NCBI GenBank assembly: GCA_012842395.1 | Contig: DUSX01000037.1 | Coordinates: 1 to 64,000 of the forward strand | Length of the DNA stretch: 64,000 bases | Origin: Bacillota bacterium | Lineage (GTDB): Bacteria > Bacillota > SHA-98 > UBA4971 | Direction of reading: 5' to 3' | Part shown: one piece after another, positions 50,061-63,591 of the stretch | Layout of the letters: each line of letters starts with the position of its first letter | How positions within the stretch are numbered: position 1 is the stretch's first letter | The notes under the pieces: model-generated | What the model was told of the DNA's origin: nothing | Database searches by the model: none | What the model saw: the letters and a program-made list of their open reading frames with translations, nothing else | Program-made: the position numbers and the translations under genes

Positions 50061-51218
50061 ATGGCCAGCCTTAAGCGGACCGCCGACTCGACCCTCGCCA
50101 AGAAGGTCAACACCATGCTTGTGCTGGATGCGGTCAGGAAGTACTCGCCCTTGTCCCGGGCCGACGTGGCGAAGCTCACCAAGCTCAGCCCGTCCACGGT
50201 CTCCGCAATAGTATCGGAGCTCGTGAGCGCCGGCCTCGTGACCGAGGCCAAGGGCGCTCCCACCGGCGTCGCCGGGAGGCGGCCCATCCTCTTGAGTCTA
50301 AACGCAGGCGCCAGCCTCGCTGCCATCATTGACGTCCAGGTGACGAGGATCCTATACGGCGTGATCGACCTCGCGGGGAATCCTGTCTCCATCATGAAGG
50401 AGGAGGCGGACCTCTCGAGCCCTGCCAACACGGTGGATCAGATCCTCAAAGCGGCCGCGCGGGCCCTCTCGCGTCTTCCGCGGGCGAGCGCCGGTGCCGC
50501 CGCCGGTATAGGTGTCGCAGTGCCCGGAATGGTGGATACAAGGACCGGCGTGATCTTGAGGTCAACCAGGCTCCGTTGGGTAAACCTCGCGCTCGCACAG
50601 CGACTTGAGCGCGAGTTCGGCCTGCCGGTTCTGGTGGAGCGCGATGTGCGCGCGGCAGCGTGGGGCGAGAGATGCTATGGGCACGCCCGGAACGTGGCCG
50701 ACTTTGTTTACGTGACGGTGGGCGAGGGCGGATTCGGCGCCGGGCTCGTGATGAACGGAAAACCATACGTCGGCGCTCGAATGCATGCGGGCGAGCTCGG
50801 ACACATGACCGTGGACATGCGGGGTCAGAGGTGCTCGTGCGGCAACATCGGGTGCCTCGCGGAGGTGGCTTCGTCGGCGATCCGCGAGTGGAAGGCCGGA
50901 GGGGCCGGCGATGCGCTCGTCGAATACACTGCTACTGGCCTCGTGAGCCTCATCAACCTGCTCGACCCGGAGCTCGCGGTGCTCGGCGGCGACATCGGTA
51001 GCTTGCCCGAATTCGCGGCGCGCGTGGAGGCAGTGGCCAGAGAACGAGCCCTCCTGGCCCCAGGCCAGATGCCTCGCGTTGTCTCGTCGCAGCTCGGAGA
51101 CATGGGGGTCGCTCTCGGGCTTGCAGGCCTCGTTTTCGATAAGTTCTACTGGGGTGAGGCATTGGCTCACGACCTTCCTGCGGTCGCCGAACGCGCGACT
51201 GTGAGCTACCGCTCTTGA
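50061..51218 (+). CDS. ROK-family transcriptional regulator
   Basis: 385-residue NagC/XylR-like repressor. ATG 50061 follows GGAGAGGT. A winged helix (LSRADVAKLTKLSPSTVSAIVSEL) precedes the ROK sugar-binding domain: GIGVAVPGMVDTRTG, VERDVRAAAWGE, HAGELGHMTVD, and the zinc motif CSCGNIGCLAE. The kinase-type ATP motif seems degraded, as usual in regulators. Divergent from the dehydrogenase-transporter-phosphatase operon, which it probably represses until the sugar binds. Confidence 0.95.
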   Translation: MASLKRTADSTLAKKVNTMLVLDAVRKYSPLSRADVAKLTKLSPSTVSAIVSELVSAGLVTEAKGAPTGVAGRRPILLSLNAGASLAAIIDVQVTRILYGVIDLAGNPVSIMKEEADLSSPANTVDQILKAAARALSRLPRASAGAAAGIGVAVPGMVDTRTGVILRSTRLRWVNLALAQRLEREFGLPVLVERDVRAAAWGERCYGHARNVADFVYVTVGEGGFGAGLVMNGKPYVGARMHAGELGHMTVDMRGQRCSCGNIGCLAEVASSAIREWKAGGAGDALVEYTATGLVSLINLLDPELAVLGGDIGSLPEFAARVEAVARERALLAPGQMPRVVSSQLGDMGVALGLAGLVFDKFYWGEALAHDLPAVAERATVSYRS

Positions 51219-51420: not shown

Positions 51421-53064
51421 ATGAAATGGCAGTTCAGACTGCTTTTGTTCGGCGCCGCGTGTGTGTTTCTACTCGGGGTCGCGCTCCTCTTGGCGAGCTC
51501 GTCGCCGGGGCGTCCAGCCGCGCCGGCCCTCGGGGGCTCGCTGGTGAGCGCGGCCGCAGACGTTGCTGTGCCGGATGGCGCCGAAGCCGCCGAGATCGGG
51601 GAGACAGGGGATATAGACGACAGCAAAGCTGGTGATGAAATGACACGTGAACCGGAGCCGTCTCGTGGCCCGGAAGACGCGACTGGCGCCCTTGCGGACT
51701 ACGTGATATACATCAACTGGGACGGGTTCGCGTACGATTACTATGTATGGGCCAACTCCTCTGGTGGCCCCGGCACGCCCGTGCTCAACTTCCTGGCCTC
51801 GCGCGGCGTCCTCTTTACAGCTACCCGCAATGGTTTTCCGAGCATCACCAATCCCATGCAGACCAGCATCGTCACGGGGGCATGGCCCGCCACGCACGGG
51901 AACACATACCGCTATTACGACGCGGCCGAGAACATCGTGAAGCAGACTGGCAGGGAGAATGCCGCTGAGACGATCGCGGAAGCGGTCGAGGCCTCGGGAA
52001 TGTCATGCGCCTCGGTTCAGCAGTTTACGCTGGACGGTCGCGGGGCCTACGCCCGAGACCCGTCTCATCTCTACATCCAGCCTGGCGGGCCCTGGCGTTC
52101 GAGAGTCGCCGAAGCCGTCAAGCTCTTGCGTAGGGAACCTGTCAACACTCCAGATGGTCCCGTCGTGGTGCCGGAGATCCCCAGATTTCTTGCCATTTAC
52201 GCCGATGACCTCGACGCAGCCGGGCACAATTCGGGGATCGGGTACGGCCTGTCCCTGGTCTTCAACTACGACGCGTGGAAGACGAAGATGATCAAGCAGC
52301 TCGCGGCCATGGACCGGGATCTTGGTTCACTCGTGGATGCGTTGATGGATCTCGGGATCTTCGAGAGGACCGCCGTCGTGCTCACGGCGGACCACGGTAT
52401 GTCGCCTGTTTCCGGAAAGTCCAGCCTGCCGGATCTTCTGGCCACCCTCTCCCAGCTCGGCTACACATGCGAGTTGCTTGCCCCCGGGGAGCGGGCGAGG
52501 GACGGGACCGACCTCGTTCTCGTGAGCTCGGGGCTTGCCGTCCAGTTCTACTTCAGGCGGGACATTACGCTCTCTCAATACGACGCAGTCATCGAAGCCC
52601 TGTCGGCCAAGCCGTACTTCGGGGGTTACATGTCCCTGCACGAGCTGAGGAAGGCCGGCGCCCACCCCATGCTCGGGCAGCTCCTGATATGGCCTGAGCC
52701 TCCGCATCACTTCAAGACCCAGGGATTGTTCTTCGGAATAGCCGGGCAGCACGATTCCGGCGACGACACGTCTCGCCACGTGTTCATGTTGTTGAGCGGA
52801 GCGGGCGTGAGGAACGGGGCCGTCGTTGACGGGCCGGTTGAGATAATCGACGTAGCGCCCACCATCTCACGGCTTCTCGGGATAAGGCCGCCCGCGAACG
52901 CCACAGGGCGCGTGCTGACCGAGGCGCTGCTGCCTGCGGGCGCTCCAGCGTCAGACCTCCAACGCGAGACACGCAGCGAGGAACGCAGTGGCCCCGGCGC
53001 GTTGCCTAGAGCCCAAGAGCTGCCTGGAGGGCGGACCACCCGGCGCGATTACATTTCGGATTGA
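51421..53064 (+). CDS. Membrane-anchored type I phosphodiesterase (alkaline phosphatase superfamily)
   Basis: 547 residues from ATG 51421; the ribosome site is weak. Residues 5-26 are one membrane segment or signal anchor, and residues 30-85 are an acidic linker. The catalytic domain of the NPP / type I phosphodiesterase group follows: YVIYINWDGFAYDYY, FPSITNPMQTSIVTGAWPATHG with the Thr/Ser nucleophile region, YADDLDAAGHNSG, TADHGMSPVSG and GQHDSGDD for metals. It would hydrolyse or transfer phosphodiester groups outside the membrane. Next gene is a PIG-L deacetylase. Confidence 0.88.
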   Translation: MKWQFRLLLFGAACVFLLGVALLLASSSPGRPAAPALGGSLVSAAADVAVPDGAEAAEIGETGDIDDSKAGDEMTREPEPSRGPEDATGALADYVIYINWDGFAYDYYVWANSSGGPGTPVLNFLASRGVLFTATRNGFPSITNPMQTSIVTGAWPATHGNTYRYYDAAENIVKQTGRENAAETIAEAVEASGMSCASVQQFTLDGRGAYARDPSHLYIQPGGPWRSRVAEAVKLLRREPVNTPDGPVVVPEIPRFLAIYADDLDAAGHNSGIGYGLSLVFNYDAWKTKMIKQLAAMDRDLGSLVDALMDLGIFERTAVVLTADHGMSPVSGKSSLPDLLATLSQLGYTCELLAPGERARDGTDLVLVSSGLAVQFYFRRDITLSQYDAVIEALSAKPYFGGYMSLHELRKAGAHPMLGQLLIWPEPPHHFKTQGLFFGIAGQHDSGDDTSRHVFMLLSGAGVRNGAVVDGPVEIIDVAPTISRLLGIRPPANATGRVLTEALLPAGAPASDLQRETRSEERSGPGALPRAQELPGGRTTRRDYISD

Positions 53065-53112
53065 GGCCCGGGCTGAGGCCGAACCGCGAGGATCGGAGCG
53101 TCGCGGGCGAAG

Positions 53113-53121
53113 TGCTATAAT
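53113..53121 (+). promoter_or_regulatory. Extended -10 promoter just before deacetylase ATG
   Basis: TGCTATAAT (TGn plus consensus TATAAT, 53116-53121) lies seven bases before ATG 53129, so transcription would start at or just before the start codon. There is no good -35 box, as is common for extended -10 promoters. Confidence 0.55.
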
Positions 53122-53128
53122 ACGTACT

Positions 53129-54775
53129 ATGCGAGTCCAGATGCTCGACCTCCGATCGAAGCCGGGAGTTGGGACGACCCGTGGTGGCCGCAAGGCCGGG
53201 GGCCCGACGATCGGGCCGGCTAGAGGCAGAGGAGAGGGAAGAGGGGCCGGCGCGATAGTCCGGGTTGCGACAAAGATGCTCGCCCGTGCCGCCCTCGTAG
53301 TCGTTGCCTGCTCGCTGTTGTACTCGTACGCTCTTTGGCGAGAACGTCCTACGACCGGGCCCTCGGGCGTGCCGCGGCTCTCGCTTGTCCCTCCTACGGC
53401 ACACGACAGGATACTTGTGGTCGCTCCCCACTGCGACGACGAAACCCTCGGTGCGGGAGGGTTCGTTTTCGACGCCTCGAGGCAAGGCGCTACCGTGTAC
53501 GTCGCGCTCATGACCAACGGAGACGGGTTCACGCTCGGGGCGCGGAGGGAGTTTCTGTCCCTGCGCACAAACCCGGCACGCCTCGTGGAGTTCGGGTACC
53601 TTCGACAGGCGGAGTCGTTGCGTGCCCTCGGTATCTTGGGCGTTCAGGCCAGCCACGTGTTTTTTCTGGGCTATCCCGATAGAGGGCTTGCCGCCATGTG
53701 GCACGAGCACTGGGACCAGCGGAATCCCTACGTATCCAAATACACCAGGACCTCGGCCAGCCCGTACGCCAATAGCTACCACAAGAACGCTCCTTACTAC
53801 GGCGAGGACGTCGTGCGAGCCCTCGAGGACATCATCGTGAAGACGCACCCGACCACCATACTTGCCTCAGCTCCCGTGGACGGACACGCGGACCATTGGG
53901 CGACTTACAATTTCGTTGTGTATGCCTGTGAGGACCTACACGAGCGAGGCCTCTTGACGTCCGGGCAGCCGCGCGTCCTGTGGTATGTCGTCCATAGGGG
54001 CGAGTGGCCTTATCCCAAGGGACTCAGGCCGGACATGGAGCTATGGCCGCCGCGCGGCCTTGGGATCGAGGATGTCCCGTGGCTGTCGTACCGCCTTTCG
54101 AGAGACGCTGTTCTGGCGAAGGCCGACGCCATCAGGAAGTACAGGAGCCAAATGCTCATCATGGCGAGGTACCTGTTAAGTTTCGCCCGCACCACAGAGC
54201 TGTTCGCCGAAGCGACCACCGAGCGCGTCCCGTGGGTGACGGATCCTGGGCCCGATGTCGATGGGCGCTTAGCTGACTGGACATCAGCGGTGGGGGCAGC
54301 AATGCACGTGCACGCTGAGCCCACCAGCGATTCGCTTCTGAGGCAGTTCGGAGGCGCCGGCGATTTCACCGGGATGGTGGTGGCTCGGGACAAGGCCGAC
54401 CTCTACATCGGCCTTCTCGTGAGGCGGGCGGCGTCGAGGGAGATTGTGTACCGCCTTCATCTTCATCCAGTTGACGCCGCACGCAGTGGCCATGTGGGTT
54501 CGGAGGGCGACATTGACGTTACTTTCAGGCCCGGGCGCACGGCGGCTGTTTCGGTAGAAAGCTCCGCAGGATCTGCTGGCGGTGGCCGGGACCTTTCGGC
54601 CGTCGAGGCAGCGAGCCAGGGCAGAGAGATCGAGATGAGAATACCCCTCGAGCTTCTCGGAGATCCCGGGACGCTCTTCGTAGCTGTGGAAAGTAGGTTC
54701 CAAGGGATCATGATCGACCAAACCATGTGGCGCGTCCTTGACCTCAGACAGCCTAAGGAGGCAGGAACCCACTAG
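53129..54775 (+). CDS. Membrane-anchored PIG-L family deacetylase with CBM9-like domain
   Basis: 548 residues from ATG 53129; ATG 53276 is an alternative that would begin at the membrane segment. Residues 50-69 (MLARAALVVVACSLLYSYAL) are a signal anchor after a Gly/Arg-rich start. The LmbE/PIG-L zinc site is ILVVAPHCDDETLGAGG, with APVDGHADHWATYN as the second metal and catalytic part. About residues 375-545 (PDVDGRLADWTSAVGA ... ADLYIGLLVR) resemble a CBM9-type carbohydrate-binding domain. It would remove N-acetyl groups from an amino sugar at the cell surface. Confidence 0.88.
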   Translation: MRVQMLDLRSKPGVGTTRGGRKAGGPTIGPARGRGEGRGAGAIVRVATKMLARAALVVVACSLLYSYALWRERPTTGPSGVPRLSLVPPTAHDRILVVAPHCDDETLGAGGFVFDASRQGATVYVALMTNGDGFTLGARREFLSLRTNPARLVEFGYLRQAESLRALGILGVQASHVFFLGYPDRGLAAMWHEHWDQRNPYVSKYTRTSASPYANSYHKNAPYYGEDVVRALEDIIVKTHPTTILASAPVDGHADHWATYNFVVYACEDLHERGLLTSGQPRVLWYVVHRGEWPYPKGLRPDMELWPPRGLGIEDVPWLSYRLSRDAVLAKADAIRKYRSQMLIMARYLLSFARTTELFAEATTERVPWVTDPGPDVDGRLADWTSAVGAAMHVHAEPTSDSLLRQFGGAGDFTGMVVARDKADLYIGLLVRRAASREIVYRLHLHPVDAARSGHVGSEGDIDVTFRPGRTAAVSVESSAGSAGGGRDLSAVEAASQGREIEMRIPLELLGDPGTLFVAVESRFQGIMIDQTMWRVLDLRQPKEAGTH

Positions 54776-54876
54776 ACCGCAGTTGTGGCGGAGGTGAGAT
54801 GCCCCTGGGCCGTCTTTCGGGGCCTTGCCGCCGATCCTTCGAGGAACGCTGCGCTATGGGAGGATGAAATGACGCC

Positions 54877-55908
54877 ATGACCGTTCTGCCCGAGGTGCTG
54901 CTTGGTCTCGAGGAAGAGATCTTCATAACCGAACCTACGCTGCCTTCCATCGCGTCGCTGTGGTATCTCGCAAAGCTGCTCTGGAGCCGCCCGTCGTACT
55001 ACTACACGCACTCGGCCTCGAACTTCGCGCGCGGCAAAGACCTCCGTCAAGGCGTGATGAGCGGAGTGGAGGTCTCCACCGCGGTCCATTCGAGCGCGGC
55101 TGACCTGGTACGCGACCTCGCCGAGAGGAGGAAGGAGCTCGCCGGGGTTTCGGGAGGGCTCATGGTGGCCACAGGTCACCTTTTTGACATCGACGCACCC
55201 ACGAACACGTGTGGCTTGCATATACACGTAGGGCCGGTGGACGAGAAGGACCTGGAGCGCACATACTCCACCCTGGCCCGGTTCTTGCCGCTTCTGTCGC
55301 TCCTCACCGCGAGTTCGCCGCTGCGAGGAGGACGCCGGTTCGGCCAGTCCTACCGCGTGGCGCGATCGTATGCCATAGGCCCGCTGCGCGCGACCGACAA
55401 GAAGTATCGTTTTCAGGACATGATCATTTCGAAGCGCCTCGGGACCATCGAGCTCCGGGTGTTTGACCCGGTATGGGACCTCGAGAGGATCCGAGTGCTT
55501 GCCGAATGCATCCAGGGTCTGGTGAGGGCTGCGGCGGAGCCGGGGTGCGCCTTTTCGTGGGACGAGCATACCTATGCGGAGGAGAGACGTGTTGCGGCGA
55601 CGCGGGGCTACGCGGGAAGCCTGCGGCAGCGTTACGCAGAGCTGCGTGACGTCGTGGACGTGCCCGAGCAGCTGTTTGCTCGGACTGTCTCGGATGAGCT
55701 GTATGAATGCTGGCGCCGCTACGGGACGCTTGTCACCTATACAGCCCTAGACCGCGCGTACCGGCACGGCGTGTTCGACCCTGGCTGGGCGGCTGCTGCG
55801 ACCTGTACGCCCGGCGCGTTGGGCCTTGTCCGAGGTCTGGCTGGATTCGCATGTTACTATGTTCCGAAGTTGCCGTATATAATCTTCAAGGGACTGAAGG
55901 AGCACTAA
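54877..55908 (+). CDS. Glutamate-cysteine ligase family 2 (GCS2/YbdK-like)
   Basis: 343-residue ATP-dependent carboxylate-amine ligase. LLGLEEEIFI carries the metal glutamates; TCGLHIHVGPVDEKD and TIELRVFDPVWD are the other hallmark motifs. YbdK-like proteins have weak gamma-glutamylcysteine activity; true substrates vary. ATG 54877 follows a 101-base gap. It is followed by a decarboxylase gene five bases downstream, so the two are probably translated together. Confidence 0.85.
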   Translation: MTVLPEVLLGLEEEIFITEPTLPSIASLWYLAKLLWSRPSYYYTHSASNFARGKDLRQGVMSGVEVSTAVHSSAADLVRDLAERRKELAGVSGGLMVATGHLFDIDAPTNTCGLHIHVGPVDEKDLERTYSTLARFLPLLSLLTASSPLRGGRRFGQSYRVARSYAIGPLRATDKKYRFQDMIISKRLGTIELRVFDPVWDLERIRVLAECIQGLVRAAAEPGCAFSWDEHTYAEERRVAATRGYAGSLRQRYAELRDVVDVPEQLFARTVSDELYECWRRYGTLVTYTALDRAYRHGVFDPGWAAAATCTPGALGLVRGLAGFACYYVPKLPYIIFKGLKEH

Positions 55909-55912
55909 AGAG

Positions 55913-56797
55913 ATGAGCGTTGGTGCAGTGATGTTGATGGTAGTGGGGGTCGGAGCCGCGCTCGTGGGCGCGCTGGTTCTTTTCTTGAGGCGCGTATGGT
56001 TTTACCGGGACCCCGTGAGGGTCCCGCCTGACGACCCTGCGGCCATCCTGGCGCCGGCGGACGGCAAGCTCATATACGCCCGCAGGTTCACGGGCGGGAA
56101 GGTCTTTGTGGAGAAGCTGGGGAAGACGATTCCCGTGACCGAGTTATCCGGAACTGATTTCGGTGCGGGCGAATCCGGCTGGATCATAGGGGTATACATG
56201 ACGCCGCTCGACGTTCATTTCAACTACGCTCCCGTGGCAGGCACCGTGTCGCGTGTGGTTCACACTCCCGCGGCGGTGAACCTGCCGATGTTGGACCTTT
56301 GGGAATACGTCAAGCTCACTTACCTGAGGCAAGCCATCGATCTTTTCGGGCGCAGGTACCACCTGTCCAACGAGCGCAATACCATATTCATCAACGTGGA
56401 GCGGCCGTGCTCGCAAGGCCCCGGGGCTGCGGGTGGCACGGTGGGTGTGCCTGGCGCCAGGCGGACCATGATTGCCGTAGTCGAGATCGCTGATAAATTC
56501 GTCAACAAGATACGGTGCTTCGTGAAGGAGGGCGACATCCTGCGGCCCGGTCAGAAGCTGTCGTTCATAGAACGTGGGTCGCAAGTGGACCTCGTGATCC
56601 CCGGGGATGACGTCGAAATCGTTGCAAAGGTGGGGCAGCAGGTATACGGCGCCCGCACGGTGATAGCGAGGTTCAGAAACAGGGGGACGACGGGAGAGAC
56701 GGGAGAGGAAGTGCCAGAAATGGCGGAGGCGGGGCGAAGGATAGAGGGGACTACGGGGACTGCGGCGGCGGCGGGGCCGGCGGAGCCGGCGGGTTAG
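55913..56797 (+). CDS. psd: Phosphatidylserine decarboxylase-like enzyme
   Basis: 294 residues. One N-terminal membrane segment (6-26), then RVWFYRDPVRVPP and ILAPADGKLIYARR, MTPLDVHFNYAPVAG (H102), LSNERNTIFINVER, VVEIADKFVNKIRCF, and the autocleavage region FIERGSQVDLVIP with the serine at about 223 in RGS rather than the usual LGS or FGS. These pyruvoyl enzymes make phosphatidylethanolamine from phosphatidylserine. A Gly-rich insert lies at 166-182, and the last 45 residues are low-complexity. No phosphatidylserine synthase gene is nearby. Confidence 0.88.
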   Translation: MSVGAVMLMVVGVGAALVGALVLFLRRVWFYRDPVRVPPDDPAAILAPADGKLIYARRFTGGKVFVEKLGKTIPVTELSGTDFGAGESGWIIGVYMTPLDVHFNYAPVAGTVSRVVHTPAAVNLPMLDLWEYVKLTYLRQAIDLFGRRYHLSNERNTIFINVERPCSQGPGAAGGTVGVPGARRTMIAVVEIADKFVNKIRCFVKEGDILRPGQKLSFIERGSQVDLVIPGDDVEIVAKVGQQVYGARTVIARFRNRGTTGETGEEVPEMAEAGRRIEGTTGTAAAAGPAEPAG

Positions 56798-56928
56798 CGA
56801 ACGGGGGCCGCGCAAGGGGCTGCAACGACGATGGTGGGAGCGTTGGCGACGGCCGCCCAGCACGAGGCTGAGGCCTGAGCCCGTGAGACCCGGACGGGCG
56901 CGGGGCGCGGGGGCGCGAGGGCGTCGGG

Positions 56929-57774
56929 ATGCTACAGGATACGGCGGTGCTGCTGCACCAATACGGATACCTTGTCATATTCGTGGTTCTCGCCATAGAG
57001 GGAACAGGAATGCCGGGCATTCCCTTGGAGATCGTGTTCCTCGGAGCGGGTTATTTGATCCAGCACGGCCAGATGAGATTTGAATACGCCGTTGCTGCGG
57101 CGGCGCTTGGGAACACTTTTGGCAACCTCCTGGGTTACATGATGGGCGCTGCTGTACGGGTGATTGCCGGCCGTCGCAGGGATGCCCTTCACCGCCCGGG
57201 TGACCGTCAGAGCGGCGGCAGGGGGCGGCGCGGCGGGGGCGCGGACCCGGGCGAGTGCGCCGTTAACGCCCTCAAGGGAAGTGACGAGCGCCGTGCGAGG
57301 GATGTGGGCGAGCGCTACACCCGCTGTCTTTCTAAAGGTGCACCGCTCGAGGCATCCGGCCCTTCCTCCAAGCATGAGACACAAAGGCTGCCTCGACGGC
57401 TTGCTCGGGAGGGCATCCTGTCCCGAGTCGATCTCTCAGGAGTGGAGGACTGGTTCTGTAAGTACGGCGCCGCCACCGTGTTCATCGGACGCTGGTTCGG
57501 GCCCATCAGGACGCCCGCTATACTGGCGTCGGGTTTCATAGGGATTGACATACGGAAATACCTGGCGGCATCAGCCTTGGCTTCCTTCTCATGGTGTCTC
57601 ACGTGGCAACTCGGCGCATGGAAACTCGGCGAGGCGGTGGTTCGCCTGCTTGAGCCCCACGTGCTCGGGGCGCTCTGGCCGTGGCGGTGGGAGCTGTTGG
57701 CAGCCGGGGTGCTCTTTGCCACCGTCGCGCTATTAGCCCTGCGACTTATCCCCAGACCAGGTGCGTCCAAGTAA
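56929..57774 (+). CDS. DedA-family membrane protein with large hydrophilic insert
   Basis: 281 residues. DedA/SNARE-associated features are YLVIFVVLAIEGTGMPGIPLE, LGNTFGNLLGYMMG and, further on, FIGRWFGPIRTPAILASGF, which in the family are parts of the re-entrant helices involved in lipid scrambling or flipping. Between YMMGAAVRV and VEDWFCKYG some 90 residues of Arg/Gly/Ser-rich sequence replace the usual loop of about 20. It closes the cluster of phosphodiesterase, deacetylase, ligase and decarboxylase genes. Confidence 0.9.
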   Translation: MLQDTAVLLHQYGYLVIFVVLAIEGTGMPGIPLEIVFLGAGYLIQHGQMRFEYAVAAAALGNTFGNLLGYMMGAAVRVIAGRRRDALHRPGDRQSGGRGRRGGGADPGECAVNALKGSDERRARDVGERYTRCLSKGAPLEASGPSSKHETQRLPRRLAREGILSRVDLSGVEDWFCKYGAATVFIGRWFGPIRTPAILASGFIGIDIRKYLAASALASFSWCLTWQLGAWKLGEAVVRLLEPHVLGALWPWRWELLAAGVLFATVALLALRLIPRPGASK

Positions 57775-57917: not shown

Positions 57918-58466
57918 GTGAGATTGTCTGTGGTCGATACGGAGAGGTGCATCGGCTGCCAGAGCTGCATGTTCGCGTGCGCGAGACGACTCGGGAAAGG
58001 CGGCCTCGCTGGCACGTGCATTGGGGTGAGATCCATCGGCGGCATGGAGCGGGGTTTCAAGGTGGTCGTGTGCCGAGCATGCGACGACCCACCGTGCGCG
58101 AGGGTCTGCCCTGTGGGCGCGCTTCAGGTCCGCAGGGGCGGGGGTGTGCGCCTCGATGAAGCGCGGTGCATCGGGTGCGGCCACTGCCGTGACGCCTGTG
58201 TCATCGGCGCGGTTTTCTGGGACGACGAAACGGGGAAGCCGATGATCTGCGTCCACTGCGGCTATTGCGCGAAGTTCTGCCCGCACGGCGTGCTTACCAT
58301 AGAGAGGGCCGACACGACTGAGAGCGCTGCTGCGCGCGTTGGCATGGCCACCGGAACCAGAGGAGAGAGGGCGGAGGGGCAGGAGAGCCTGGAGAGGGCC
58401 CTTGAGGCGAGCAATGTGGCACACGCAACAGAGAAGAGTGCGGAGGGGGCTGGAGCAAATGCTTAG
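57918..58466 (+). CDS. Multi-cluster 4Fe-4S ferredoxin
   Basis: 182 residues from GTG 57918. Cysteine motifs occur as CIGCQSCMFAC, CRACDDPPCARVCP, CIGCGHCRDAC and CVHCGYCAKFCP, enough for about four 4Fe-4S clusters, as in DmsB/HycB-type electron carriers. The last 45 residues are a low-complexity tail. The next gene, an aldehyde ferredoxin oxidoreductase, begins before this one ends, so the protein is very probably its electron acceptor. Confidence 0.93.
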   Translation: MRLSVVDTERCIGCQSCMFACARRLGKGGLAGTCIGVRSIGGMERGFKVVVCRACDDPPCARVCPVGALQVRRGGGVRLDEARCIGCGHCRDACVIGAVFWDDETGKPMICVHCGYCAKFCPHGVLTIERADTTESAAARVGMATGTRGERAEGQESLERALEASNVAHATEKSAEGAGANA

Positions 58467-60240
58467 GGGCGATCCTCTCGCAAACGTCCTCTACATAGAC
58501 CTTTCCAAGAAGAAGCATTGGGTCGAGCGGCGGGAGGACCTCTTCGAGAAGAGCATAGGAGGCGCGGGCGCGGCGGTCGAGCTCCTGCACGAGGAGTGCC
58601 CCCGGGGTGCCGATCCGTTTTCCCCCGAGAACCCAATCGTCTTCGCCGTGGGCCCGTTGACGGGGCTGTTTCCCCTGGCCTCGAAGACCGTTGCCATGTT
58701 CAAGTCCCCCCACACCGGTAACCTCGGCGAGAGCCATGCCGGAGGGCGAAGCGCCGTCGCCATTCGCACGGCAGGGTACGGGGCGATCGTCATCCGGGGG
58801 GCGAACGATATCCCGGGGTATGTGGCTATCCACGGCAGCGAGGTCCACTTCCGCGACGCCCGTACCCTCTGGGGCATGAGGGACAGCTTCACCGTTGGTC
58901 GCATCATCCGGGAGAACGAGCCGGCGGCCGGGCTTCGCAGCATCATGCGCATCGGCAGGGCGGGCGAGAAACTGATACCGTACGCTTGCGTTACCACGGA
59001 GAGCTACAGACATTTTGGCAGGCTGGGGCTCGGCGCGGTCTTCGGCAGCAAAAAGCTGAAGGCGGTCGTGGTGTCGGGCAAGCACTCGCTGCCGGTGGGA
59101 GGGGGAGAGGGCGCGGGGGGCGCCGCGGAATACCGGCGCGTGTACGACCAGATATACCAGGAAGCCGTTGCCTCGCCGGTCATGAAGAAATACCACGACC
59201 TCGGGACGCCGGAAAACGTCCTGCCCTTGAACGCCCTCGGTGGACTGCCAACACGTAACCTGAAGGACGCCAGGTTTGAGGGGGCTGACCGCATCTCCGG
59301 GGAGGCGCTGGCCGAGCATTACCTGGGGCGGAGGCTGGCCTGCTCCCACTGTCCGGTGGGGTGCATACACATTGCGGCGCTCCGGGAGCCTGACGAAAAC
59401 GAGCCTTACTTTTACAAGACCAGCATGATCTCTTACGACTACGAGCTTATCTACGCGCTTGGCTCTATGCTCGGCGGCTCGGACCCCGAGGGCCTTCTGA
59501 AGCTCATCGACCGCATCGAGGTCTACGGGCTTGACGCCATGAGCACAGGCGTGGTGCTGGCCTGGGCGACCGAGGCCCAGGAGCGCGGCCTCGTATCTGA
59601 GGACGCGGCAGGCGGCCTTCGGCTTGCCTGGGGCGATTATCCCGCCTACCTCGAGGCGGTGCGGCGGATCATCGAGCAGCCGAACGAGTTCTACGCGGCG
59701 CTCGCGCGCGGCGTTGAGCACGCTGCCTCGGTATACGGGGGCGAGGACTTTGCCCTCGCCTTCGGTGGCAACGAGATGCCGGGATATCACACGGGCCCCG
59801 GGGCGCACTTGGGGTTTCTGGTGGGAGCGCGGCACAGCCACCTGGACAGCGCAGGTTACAGCGTGGACCAGAAGGTGCTCATGAAGAGGCAGATCCCTCC
59901 GGACGAACTCGCGCGCGAGATCCTCAAGGAGGAACGCTGGAGGCAGGTCCTGTCCAGCCTGGTGGCGTGCTTCTTCGCGAGGGGCATATACAGCCCTGAG
60001 AGGACCGCCGCGGCCCTGCGGGTGGCCGGGTTCGAGTACACCGCCGATGACCTCAAGAGGATCGGCGCAGACATACACAGACGGAAGTACGCCTTCAAAT
60101 TCCGCGAGGGGTTTTCGTTCGAGACGCTCCGCGTGCCTGGGCGGATTTTCGAGACTCCGAGCCCAGTCGGCGCGTTGCATGAGAGGTACCTGCAGGCGGC
60201 CATTTCCAGCATCGGGGAGACAGTCGGGGCTGGTGACTAG
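58459..60240 (+). CDS. Aldehyde ferredoxin oxidoreductase (tungsten AOR family)
   Basis: 593 residues, ATG 58459 after GGAGGGGGCTGGAG, overlapping the ferredoxin gene by eight bases. The N-terminal tungstopterin-binding domain has KSIGGAGAAVELLHEECP, VGPLTGLFPLASKTVAMFKSP and GGRSAVAIRTAGYGAIVIRG. The 4Fe-4S cysteines start with CSHCPVGC, and DSAGYSVDQ follows at the C-terminal side. It oxidises aldehydes to acids (or reduces acids) with ferredoxin; the substrate is unknown. Confidence 0.95.
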   Translation: MLRGDPLANVLYIDLSKKKHWVERREDLFEKSIGGAGAAVELLHEECPRGADPFSPENPIVFAVGPLTGLFPLASKTVAMFKSPHTGNLGESHAGGRSAVAIRTAGYGAIVIRGANDIPGYVAIHGSEVHFRDARTLWGMRDSFTVGRIIRENEPAAGLRSIMRIGRAGEKLIPYACVTTESYRHFGRLGLGAVFGSKKLKAVVVSGKHSLPVGGGEGAGGAAEYRRVYDQIYQEAVASPVMKKYHDLGTPENVLPLNALGGLPTRNLKDARFEGADRISGEALAEHYLGRRLACSHCPVGCIHIAALREPDENEPYFYKTSMISYDYELIYALGSMLGGSDPEGLLKLIDRIEVYGLDAMSTGVVLAWATEAQERGLVSEDAAGGLRLAWGDYPAYLEAVRRIIEQPNEFYAALARGVEHAASVYGGEDFALAFGGNEMPGYHTGPGAHLGFLVGARHSHLDSAGYSVDQKVLMKRQIPPDELAREILKEERWRQVLSSLVACFFARGIYSPERTAAALRVAGFEYTADDLKRIGADIHRRKYAFKFREGFSFETLRVPGRIFETPSPVGALHERYLQAAISSIGETVGAGD

Positions 60241-60369: not shown

Positions 60370-60996
60370 TGCGCTGCTTGCGTACCTGCTGCTCCCCATC
60401 CTTGTCATGCGGCGCTTCATCACCGCGTGTGGGTTGGACCCTTGTGCTCGGAGCAGTGACAGACCGACGGAGACTAGGGTACCTTCGCCCGAAAGCGTGA
60501 AGAACGACAATCCACAGTCGTCTTGCACTCCGTTAAGGACTTCGAAGAGACCGTCCCAGTCACCTTTGAGCATATCCTTGTTCAGCTCGAATACCACAGT
60601 CTGGACTGCTGCCTTGCGCAGGAGTCATTACATCCCGAGGAGCGCATGGTACTCCCTGCCTTCGGTGTCTGTCCTTATCAGGTCTATATGGTGGACGCGA
60701 CCTAGTAGGCTGTCTAGTGGTTCAGACGGCGTTTCGATGGTTTCGATGCCGTCCACATAGTTCTCGAAGTAATCGTCCCCGTGTTCATGAATCGACGAGT
60801 TGCCTACGAATCGGTTGGCGAAGTGGGAAACGACGGTTCCTTCTGAAGAGTACACGGCCATGTTGATGACATGACATCATTCGCACAAGTAGTTTATCGA
60901 CAGGTTGTCCTTGACTATCAGGACAATGTGAGGATTAGCTTCGTACGCAAGTACCCGTCCTGTCCGACCCACAAGATGCCCCGACAGATTCACCAC
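60370..60996 (-). pseudogene. FkbM-family methyltransferase remnant
   Basis: Reading one minus-strand frame from 60996 gives LSGHLVGRTGRVLAYEANPH, then INMAVYSSEGTVVSHFANRF, VHHIDLIRTDTEGREYHALL and VVFELNKDMLKGDWDGLFEV, an FkbM methyltransferase C-terminal two-thirds (the D-x-EG-E motif is kept). The frame is interrupted by TGA at 60877-60879 and by TAA-TGA at 60625-60630. The SAM motif I region is missing; the remnant begins right at the stop of the glycosyltransferase gene. It is a 5'-truncated pseudogene, unless the stops are read through. Confidence 0.8.
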
Positions 60997-63002
60997 TAGT
61001 CAATCCACTCTACCAAACTAGGATGCGGGTCGAGGATGGATTCGTATTGCTGCTTGATACCGTATCGTGCGTTTGGATCCAGCATCTTGTATCTCCGGTA
61101 CTTGAGCTCTCGGTCAGCAGGCGTTGCCCAGCCGAAATGCTTCACTCGCAGCTCTGACCGGGCGCCGGGCAGAGCGGTCACGTTATTCGGAAGCCTGCCA
61201 CAGTGCAGCGGGGTCTCTTGCCACGTGTACTTGAACCTGGGTTGGTAGCGCACGAGGAAGACCCTGTAGGTCTTGTGAGCCTGCCAGTACGGATCTTCAC
61301 GATAGTGTGTCGGATCCCAGAAGTCGTAGAGTCGGAATGAGTAATAGTCGTAGAACGGCTGGTTGATGAGGTCGCGTATGGCAGACGTGGCCCTGTCCTC
61401 GAGCATTTCGTCTGCATCGAGAACGAGGATCCAATCCGGATTGGTGCTCACGGTGAGCTCCCACTGCTGCCTCCTCAGTTCGACCTCGTTGTGAAAACCG
61501 TGCTTCGAGTTCGAGACGATTGTCGTGGGAATGTTGCTTAGCGCCTGTCTGCACACTTCGACGGTGTCATCCTCGCTCGCGTCATCGAGAATCACGGCGG
61601 CGTCGATGTATTGCGCGGCGTGTTCGAGTACTCTGCGGAGATACCTGCCAGCTTCGTTCCGAACCAGCATGGACAGGGTGAGCCTGTTACCCTCGTACTT
61701 TGTTACTCTGGTCTGCATGAAATCTGGCAAATCGGGCTCGGGCACCCTCGTGAACTCCACCCCTCTTACCAGCCACCTTGTTTCCTTCTCAGGTCTGGTT
61801 ACGAGGACCCGGCAGTCATACAACTCGCGGAAATACCTGTCTTGTTCGACACCATGAGTCAAGACGCGGCCGGTCACAAGCGCTTCCGTTGCCTCGGAGT
61901 CTATCAAAGCCAGGCGGGAGCTCAGCACGTCAGTCCTCGAGATGAGTCTTGCTTGCATGGAAGCTCTCAGATCGTCTTCAAGACCCTTTGAGATCTCCGA
62001 CCAATAGTCTGGTGCGAGAAGCTCCATTCCGTCGTCGCGTCTTGGGTCCCTGAAGTCGAAACTCCAGAACCGTTCGACCGCTCGTTTTGCTGCAGAGAGA
62101 ATCTTGTTCATCTCGCTGCGAATCCCGTGGGATTTCAGCAACGTAGCAGCGGCCTTATGAACCGGGGCTTGCGCTTCGGTGCGGTTGGCTTCTCGGTAGT
62201 CCTTGACACGTTCGAGATCTGACTCCCTGTAAATGTGATAGGCGGGATAGCATGTGTCAACATAGAGCCTCAATCCGAGTGCTGCCGCCCGTATGCAGAA
62301 GTGTCTGTCCTCTCCCCAGAAAGACACGTTAGGGACTTCCCGAAACGAGACGCCTTTCTGAAGAGCCTCTCTCGATATCAATGTGCACGCGCCCAACCCG
62401 CCCACCTCGTACAATCCGGGCGTCTTCAGACTCTCCAGAAACGCCCGAGTCCTGGACTGGGCCTCTTCTTGGGAAATACGTTCCCCGCGTGCGTGCTCGA
62501 ACAGAGTGTATTGGTCCTGGAGCCAGACCTGGGGCAGCGGAGGCGAGTCAGGCTGCCACTGTGTCCAGAATATCTCGGACACAATCGCCCTCCCACAGGT
62601 GATGAGGTGTCGGAGGGTATCCGGGTGCAGAACGAGGTCGGAGTCGATCAAGAAGAGGTAGTCATACTCGTTTTCAAGAGCGAACCGAATCATCCGGTCC
62701 TTGTGCTCTGCGACCCTCCACACGAGGTCTTCGTTCCATCGATGGGTCTTGTCATCACAGACATAGTCTTGTCTGCCTGTCCCCACTGCACCGGTTGCAC
62801 TCTCCAAGATGAAGACCCGGCTGCCTTCCCGGTGGAACGCAGCGAGCATGGCGGATGAGTCCGGATTCTGGTTGTCATCGACGAAGGCGAAATCGGTCAA
62901 TGTACCGGAGACATCCAGCTCGGACAGGGATTTGAGGAACTCGGCCAAGATTGGCGGCTTCTGGTTTACTGGGCTTCCGATGAGCACCCTCTGAACGGTC
63001 AA
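60996..63002 (-). CDS. Two-domain glycosyltransferase
   Basis: About 668 residues. TTG 63002 (LTVQRVLIGSPVNQKPPIL) or GTG 62987 is the likely start; the frame is open further upstream to 63305 without family similarity. The N-terminal half is a GT-A glycosyltransferase (YLFLIDSDLVLHPDTLRHL, VGGLGACTLISREAL, FWGEDRHFCIRAAALG). The C-terminal half is a GT2 enzyme (LTLSMLVRNEAGRYLRRVLE, VILDDASEDDTVEVC, ILVLDADEMLEDRATS with the DxD). It probably decorates a surface glycan. The FkbM pseudogene directly downstream suggests a former glycan-modification cassette. Confidence 0.9.
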   Translation of the reverse strand: MTVQRVLIGSPVNQKPPILAEFLKSLSELDVSGTLTDFAFVDDNQNPDSSAMLAAFHREGSRVFILESATGAVGTGRQDYVCDDKTHRWNEDLVWRVAEHKDRMIRFALENEYDYLFLIDSDLVLHPDTLRHLITCGRAIVSEIFWTQWQPDSPPLPQVWLQDQYTLFEHARGERISQEEAQSRTRAFLESLKTPGLYEVGGLGACTLISREALQKGVSFREVPNVSFWGEDRHFCIRAAALGLRLYVDTCYPAYHIYRESDLERVKDYREANRTEAQAPVHKAAATLLKSHGIRSEMNKILSAAKRAVERFWSFDFRDPRRDDGMELLAPDYWSEISKGLEDDLRASMQARLISRTDVLSSRLALIDSEATEALVTGRVLTHGVEQDRYFRELYDCRVLVTRPEKETRWLVRGVEFTRVPEPDLPDFMQTRVTKYEGNRLTLSMLVRNEAGRYLRRVLEHAAQYIDAAVILDDASEDDTVEVCRQALSNIPTTIVSNSKHGFHNEVELRRQQWELTVSTNPDWILVLDADEMLEDRATSAIRDLINQPFYDYYSFRLYDFWDPTHYREDPYWQAHKTYRVFLVRYQPRFKYTWQETPLHCGRLPNNVTALPGARSELRVKHFGWATPADRELKYRRYKMLDPNARYGIKQQYESILDPHPSLVEWID

Positions 63003-63591
63003 CGGCTGTTCACACACCTTTGGTCTAGTTGGATCTCTCGGCAAGTCTCGCGCCTGAGCTACATCGACACGACCGAGTTGATGGCACCTGCGCCGAACGC
63101 ACACGGGGCATGACGCCGGACCTGTGCGACGGGCCTCAAAAACACTGAAGGCATGCAAATGACGTGCCATTCTAACGGGGGAGGGCTTCGAACTCGCAAA
63201 GTCCGGGAGTCCTACGTCTGCCAAGTGAGGATACGCATCAACTCGGCCCCTGCGCGTTGCGGCCAGTGAGAAATACCTGCGCGTTGCTGATCCCAAATGT
63301 ATCACCTAGTTCGTGTGACTCTGCCGCCCTGGGAGATCCGCTTCCTTCCTCGCTCCCTCCGCTCGTGCGGCGGTACGATGTCTTGTCTGGGAGGGCGTAC
63401 GTCGCGGGGCGACATATCATAGAAGTTAATCTGCATGTCAATAATATTAATATATGCATTGACAATGTTTGGGGCGAGATCTATGATTGATTCCGGCGGC
63501 ATCAGGAGGCGCCGAGGGGCAGCACGAGGAGGCGTGCCTTGGTTTAGATCAATCCAGGTGGTCCCGCGGAGGCGATGGGCAAGTGGCGGAC
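63003..63591. other. Intergenic region with plus-strand promoter
   Basis: About 590 bases. No supported gene. An unusually AT-rich patch at 63425-63490 contains the promoter listed next; the rest has no recognisable element. Confidence 0.5.
63459..63487 (+). promoter_or_regulatory. Sigma-A promoter for the ABC ATPase gene
   Basis: TTGACA (63459-63464), a 17-base spacer and TATGAT (63482-63487) match a housekeeping promoter and face the ABC ATPase gene, about 100 bases ahead of its start. Confidence 0.75.

Follow-up and report, generated by a model that had tools for sequence, protein, structure and literature searches.

In Clostridioides difficile (HexSDF; PMC10128005) and Pseudomonas aeruginosa (GpgSDF; PMC12713373), a glycosyltransferase, a deacetylase and a flippase make an amino-sugar lipid, and these lipids alter surface charge or drug response (PMC10128005, PMC12713373). 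GpgS belongs to GT4, GpgD to COG3233 and GpgF to COG0392 (PMC12713373); HexD is a polysaccharide deacetylase and HexF is MprF-like (PMC10128005). Here we analysed a gene cluster at positions 51421-57774 of a 64,000-nt window, i.e. the whole stretch of Bacillota DNA under study, to which all coordinates refer unless another locus is named (genomes are coded, the window's genome being G000). Its core genes encode a PIG-L deacetylase, a GCS2/YbdK-like carboxylate-amine ligase, a decarboxylase related to phosphatidylserine decarboxylase (PSD) and a DedA protein. As in HexSDF and GpgSDF, genes for a glycosyltransferase, a deacetylase and a transporter stand together in the Moorellaceae clusters (a GT2–PIG-L fusion plus DedA), whereas in the window's genome the GT2 gene lies elsewhere, outside the cluster. 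The parallel is one of function: as far as published annotation goes, the protein families differ, and HexSDF and GpgSDF have neither a ligase nor a decarboxylase. Another parallel is the pssA–DedA–psd operon in Bacillus subtilis, whose DedA protein has been proposed to move phosphatidylethanolamine (PE) out; PSD and DedA genes are together there as here, but here pssA is missing and the ligase and PIG-L genes are present. Our literature search found no article linking these families or describing the cluster (an earlier mention in a 2009 amidoligase survey is possible). A survey of pupylation mentions none of the cluster's partner families (PMC2588565), and the literature on Moorella lipids yielded nothing useful on the cluster. 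The locus is apparently an undescribed envelope-lipid operon, with a firmly established gene linkage and a putative product chemistry.

The central finding is that the ligase and a distinct subfamily of PSD-like proteins occur together. The ligase, present in 8 of 41 relatives and also in other Bacillota and in Fimbriimonadales, was detected in 23 of 398 genomes sampled from the same phylum. All 23 carried the PSD subfamily and none of the 375 ligase-negative genomes did (Fisher's test, 8e-38, a value that overstates independence because the cells count related genomes). Subfamily members scored at least 307 bits, and every other PSD in this sample at most 165 bits. The two genes were essentially adjacent in all 23 genomes; in G173 the pair is divided by contig ends, with the end of the ligase gene beside the PSD gene and its start on another contig. 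Apart from one additional copy in G245, the decarboxylase subfamily never occurred without the ligase. The pairing was repeated in Armatimonadota, where 15 of 201 sampled genomes had the ligase and 14 of these 15 also had the PSD subfamily (13 with adjacent genes), compared with none of 20 ligase-negative genomes. When the first Fimbriimonadales metagenome-assembled genomes were examined, the two genes co-occurred unlinked in three of five. The repetition in two phyla is a stronger argument than the Fisher values. In each of eight cluster genomes that were tested, the PSD-like protein was the sole member of PF02666, and three genus-mates without the cluster had no PF02666 protein. The next-nearest PSD relatives (~160 bits; loci L064 and L065) lie in a different cluster, without the ligase, which contains repeated genes (family c38) resembling B12-binding radical SAM proteins, plus a methyltransferase.

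The decarboxylase gene (55913-56797, + strand; PF02666, 9.5e-33) encodes a divergent pyruvoyl enzyme with an N-terminal transmembrane helix. It shares with canonical short bacterial and archaeal PSDs the pyruvoyl fold, the GS self-cleavage site, the histidine and the membrane helix: RGSQVD, with the GS cleavage site, is invariant in the aligned subfamily rows, and the VH histidine of the catalytic region is kept. In contrast, all nine subfamily rows have VH(F/Y)NY and F(V/I)NKI (for example VHFNY and FVNKI) at the positions where eight canonical PSDs of the phylum have VHxNR and IARRI, IERGSQVD stands in place of IKFGSCTE, two arginine positions conserved in canonical PSDs are gone, and two insertions have been gained. 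Unlike canonical PSDs, the subfamily is nearly always encoded beside the ligase and has no phosphatidylserine (PS) synthase partner. The window's protein also has an in-frame low-complexity G/R/A-rich loop (56410-56470), which is missing from relatives outside the genus; a similar loop is present in the congeneric genome G002.

These features bear on the possibility that the locus is a PE module, in which the PSD-like enzyme would make PE from PS, DedA would export it and the ligase would gamma-glutamylate its ethanolamine amine. Such a module would agree with the PF02666 homology, with the retained GS site and catalytic-region histidine and with the adjacency of PSD and DedA, and PSD followed by ligase is a chemically sensible order. 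The phospholipid genes of the cluster genomes argue otherwise. CdsA was found in all 30 genomes searched and PF01066, the family of PgsA and PssA, in 14 of 14 control genomes; PF01066 was not found in ten cluster genomes, namely the window's own and nine more, including the single-contig G268, with the limit that a family search may overlook a divergent enzyme and that the genomes are mostly drafts. The other cluster genomes had at most one CDP-alcohol transferase, a PgsA-like protein or a divergent relative, and no PssA-type enzyme besides it. Proteins of the PLD-type cardiolipin-synthase/PssA kind were absent or low-scoring in most cluster genomes, with no full protein recognised. Because a PS synthase was not recognised in most cluster genomes, PS is an unlikely substrate of the PSD-like enzyme. 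With the canonical arginine positions gone and the decarboxylase confined, save for one extra copy, to genomes with the ligase, we regard the PE module as unlikely; canonical PE synthesis was ruled out as the leading reading, as PS synthase was not found and the PSD subfamily is distinct. In G000 and its relatives G002-G007, G013, G015, G043, G111, G221, G268, G354 and G391, neither PgsA nor PssA was detected despite the presence of CdsA. Of these, G268 belongs to the Moorella group and is assembled as a single contig, and PgsA is present in other members of its genus.

The ligase gene (54877-55908, + strand) gave only a short match to PF04107 (4e-6), and the protein scored 53.8 bits against TIGR02050, below the equivalog cut-off of 176.4. 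Its motifs GLEEE, GLHIHVG and GTIELR are intact as read from the sequence, and the metal and acid motifs GxEEE, HxH and GTxExR are invariant or nearly so and align with those of Escherichia coli YbdK. A structure model with a pLDDT of only 71.5 had 1tt4 and 1r8g as best PDB matches (E ~1e-8), and its fold matches ran from YbdK to glutathione-type ligases (GCL), then PafA and glutamine synthetase. Ligases of the glutamine synthetase/GCL/PafA fold classically activate the gamma-carboxylate of glutamate. The protein thus shares its predicted fold and motifs (GLEEE, GxHxHxG, GTxExR) with GCS2/YbdK ligases, but it is 17-18% identical to YbdK, has another middle region and an obligate decarboxylase partner, and ends in a conserved hydrophobic C-terminal tail. 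This tail (GYYxPKLPYxxxKxxxE) is kept in the ligase of all relatives, which suggests that the enzyme may contact the membrane.

How far does the conservation extend beyond the pair? The sequence-only reading had described five consecutive genes for a phosphodiesterase, a PIG-L deacetylase, a GCS2 ligase, a PSD and a DedA protein. The open reading frame (ORF) calls at 51421-57774 agree, with all five genes adjoining on the + strand, and Pfam matches support the five family assignments, that of GCS2 by a weak and short match. The check that it had proposed, co-conservation of all five, held for four of them: PIG-L, GCS2, PSD and DedA recur together, whereas a phosphodiesterase homologue at the cluster is restricted to the window's genus (G002). 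Gene order and strand recur in ~20 genomes from several families, which exceeds chance. The order PIG-L–ligase–PSD–DedA is constant in the window's genus and in Moorellaceae, family f30 and UBA4795, whereas f23 has PIG-L after DedA. Among 24 Bacillota ligase loci that we counted ourselves, 19 have a neighbouring PIG-L gene and ~22 a DedA gene downstream, and several of the exceptions are cut by contig ends. The genes commonly overlap by 4-16 bases. In G264 there is no PIG-L gene, and the DedA place is occupied by a gene that we rejected as DedA since it encodes a Nudix protein. The ligase and PSD are the universal core, and PIG-L and DedA are core in Bacillota. Because clusters of other genera have no phosphodiesterase gene, it is an accessory to this four-gene core, and we ruled it out as a core member.

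The phosphodiesterase (51421-53064, + strand; PF01663, 3e-30) is a membrane-anchored protein of the type I phosphodiesterase/alkaline-phosphatase superfamily with an N-terminal hydrophobic segment. Its genus-restricted occurrence bears on the possibility of a glycolipid resembling a glycosylphosphatidylinositol (GPI) anchor, for which PIG-L would free a glucosamine, PSD would supply PE, DedA would move it and the phosphodiesterase would add ethanolamine phosphate. The PF01663 fold family does include the eukaryotic ethanolamine-phosphate transferases, and the PIG-L family membership and the extracytoplasmic anchors would also suit it. However, the ethanolamine-phosphate step would depend on a phosphodiesterase that is missing from every cluster outside the genus, GCS2 would have no role and a PS synthase is lacking, making this explanation very improbable.

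The PIG-L gene (53129-54775, start uncertain, + strand; PF02585, 2.8e-22) encodes a deacetylase with an N-terminal signal anchor. The motifs PHCDDE and HADH are intact as read from the sequence, the metal-ligand positions H101, D104 and H256 are invariant among relatives, and the structure model matches the MshB, BshB and LnmX folds. A sugar-binding domain had been assigned to the protein; this label is not established, since no Pfam model matches the C-terminus, which is modelled as a beta-sandwich with weak fold matches to Ig-like domains. The N-terminus is rich in arginine and lysine ahead of the signal anchor. As this positive charge precedes the anchor, the protein should lie N-in with its catalytic domain outside the cell, according to the positive-inside rule. 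The DedA/VTT lipid transporter-like protein (56929-57774, + strand; PF09335, 5.5e-10) scored 40.2 bits, above the family cut-off of 33.9, and 42 bits against the UptA equivalog model, below its cut-off of 250. It contains a long in-frame low-complexity G/R/A-rich loop of ~80 residues (57190-57440), missing outside the genus and similar in G002.

A deacetylase next to a cysteine-type ligase had also been read as a possible thiol route, which would yield a low-molecular-weight product like bacillithiol or ergothioneine. Both the PIG-L and GCS2 families are known in thiol pathways, and the proteins do match the BshB1 and YbdK models weakly. These matches are far below curated cut-offs (PIG-L reached 32.0 bits against a BshB cut-off of 182.5, and its BshB and MshB matches were all far below theirs), the PIG-L domain would face outward, PSD and DedA both belong to membrane-lipid families, and the conserved neighbourhood has no cysteine-specific partner gene. 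A thiol route is thus the least probable of the explanations considered and was ruled out on the sub-cut-off scores and the PIG-L topology.

Another partner of the cluster, a GT2 glycosyltransferase, came to light outside the window. In Moorellaceae, f30 and UBA4795 this GT2 is fused to the N-terminus of PIG-L, and a cytosolic GT2 domain in the fusion fits a PIG-L domain predicted to be outside. Among NCBIfam models it comes closest to glucosyl-3-phosphoglycerate synthase and, with slightly lower scores, to AglJ and the polyprenyl-phosphate GalNAc synthase PpgS; all three matches are below cut-off, those to AglJ and PpgS far below. By these matches its domain is related to the mycobacterial PpgS and archaeal AglJ polyprenyl-phosphate glycosyltransferases, from which it differs in its scores and in the Moorella fusion, which adds a membrane anchor and a deacetylase after GT2. 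In the window's genome the GT2 gene is single-copy (G000:C4:172163-172774, L125) and lies near cdsA–ispG–proS; in G268 it is missing at the cdsA–ispG place and the fused copy is present instead. Ten Armatimonadota loci have the GT2 family near ligase and PSD, and in most Armatimonadota loci the three share an operon; the arrangement ligase–PSD–small protein–GT2 is seen in nine. In a tree, the fused, cdsA-linked and Armatimonadota GT2s group together (98/97) and separately from all other GT2s that were included, and the GT2 was present in all 23 ligase-positive genomes of the phylum sample. The small protein of the nine Armatimonadota clusters (~130 amino acids; e.g. L131:10626-11021 and L132:7368-7787) is N-terminally anchored and helical-looking, with no family assigned.

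The reading that we prefer, with a probability of about 0.35, is that the operon of PIG-L, ligase, PSD and DedA decorates and exports a membrane lipid, starting from the GT2 product and giving an amine-rich, cationic surface glycolipid. In the proposed pathway, GT2 would use a nucleotide sugar on the cytoplasmic side to place an N-acetylated amino sugar on a lipid. The ligase, which its tail would keep at the membrane, would then use ATP to couple an amine of the lipid with the side-chain carboxylate of an amino acid, so that the alpha-amino-carboxylate stays free; glutamate, joined through its gamma-carboxylate, is the most likely amino acid. The membrane-anchored pyruvoyl decarboxylase would remove the alpha-carboxylate to give a primary amine (with glutamate, a 4-aminobutyryl amide), DedA would move the lipid to the outer leaflet, and the external PIG-L would strip the N-acetyl group from the sugar. 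Pyruvoyl decarboxylases require a free alpha-amine beside the carboxylate. The order ligase then decarboxylase is consistent with this, because a gamma-glutamyl amide keeps both groups while an alpha-linked amino acid would not. That the two enzymes act in series as a new head-group chemistry of Bacillota and Armatimonadota, installing a decarboxylated amino acid such as 4-aminobutyryl on a glycolipid, is a tentative and more doubtful proposal. We infer the topology (from the positive-inside rule), the substrates, the step order, which amine serves as acceptor and what the product does.

Several points weigh against the decoration and export operon. Decarboxylation first would fit the gene data equally well. 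If PIG-L is external, an ATP-dependent ligase in the cytosol could not use the amine that PIG-L makes, and another acceptor amine must exist. The Armatimonadota clusters have no adjacent PIG-L and DedA, the distribution of the cluster is patchy even inside the window's genus, and GT2 is found in 246 of 396 phylum genomes at 1e-40 (~60%), hence has a wider role. Moreover, the substrates and chemistry of the pathway are deduced from sequence. As GT2 is common across the phylum, the ligase–PSD pair resembles a decoration step added to a GT2 product that is itself more widespread. A possible though doubtful alternative is that ligase and PSD are a functional unit and that PIG-L, GT2 and DedA have a separate envelope task and are co-transcribed only through a general connection with the envelope. 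The Armatimonadota pairs without nearby PIG-L and DedA, the frequent GT2 genes without the pair and the arrangement in G264 would all fit such a division. Against it stand the near-constant gene order and the frequent adjacency of PIG-L and DedA in Bacillota loci of several families, and two independent arrangements that bring the GT2 gene together with the pair. The idea put forward in the sequence-only reading, that the pathway may make a surface glycolipid or an amino-acylated lipid of an undescribed kind, is kept as the best one, strengthened by the GT2 fusion and the operon.

On the upstream side, a ROK-family repressor gene (50061-51218, + strand; PF00480, 3.4e-48) is kept in the same genus only (G002, with a 73% identical neighbour at L018); it is probably a regulator of the cluster and not core. 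Consensus promoters were looked for and none was found. Downstream, profile matches identify a ferredoxin-like 4Fe-4S protein and an aldehyde:ferredoxin oxidoreductase (57918-60240, + strand), the latter a tungsten or molybdenum enzyme. They are a separate pair outside the cluster, because the pair is missing at other clusters. Further downstream, the - strand encodes a 769-amino-acid protein (60996-63305) whose C-terminal half holds a GT2 domain and whose N-terminal half holds a second, Anp1-like region that resembles a glycosyltransferase.

By public names, one of the paired proteins would be an enzyme of PE synthesis and the other a glutamate-cysteine ligase, and the genomic evidence speaks against both. 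Through the compact and testable ligase–PSD pair, an undescribed membrane lipid could be approached in Armatimonadota and in thermophilic acetogens, among them the culturable Moorella and Thermanaeromonas. The cluster bears on how membranes are built where neither PgsA nor PssA can be recognised. If the proposed pathway is true, cationic aminoglycolipids would be present in Bacillota and Armatimonadota with little or no synthesis of phosphatidylglycerol or PE.

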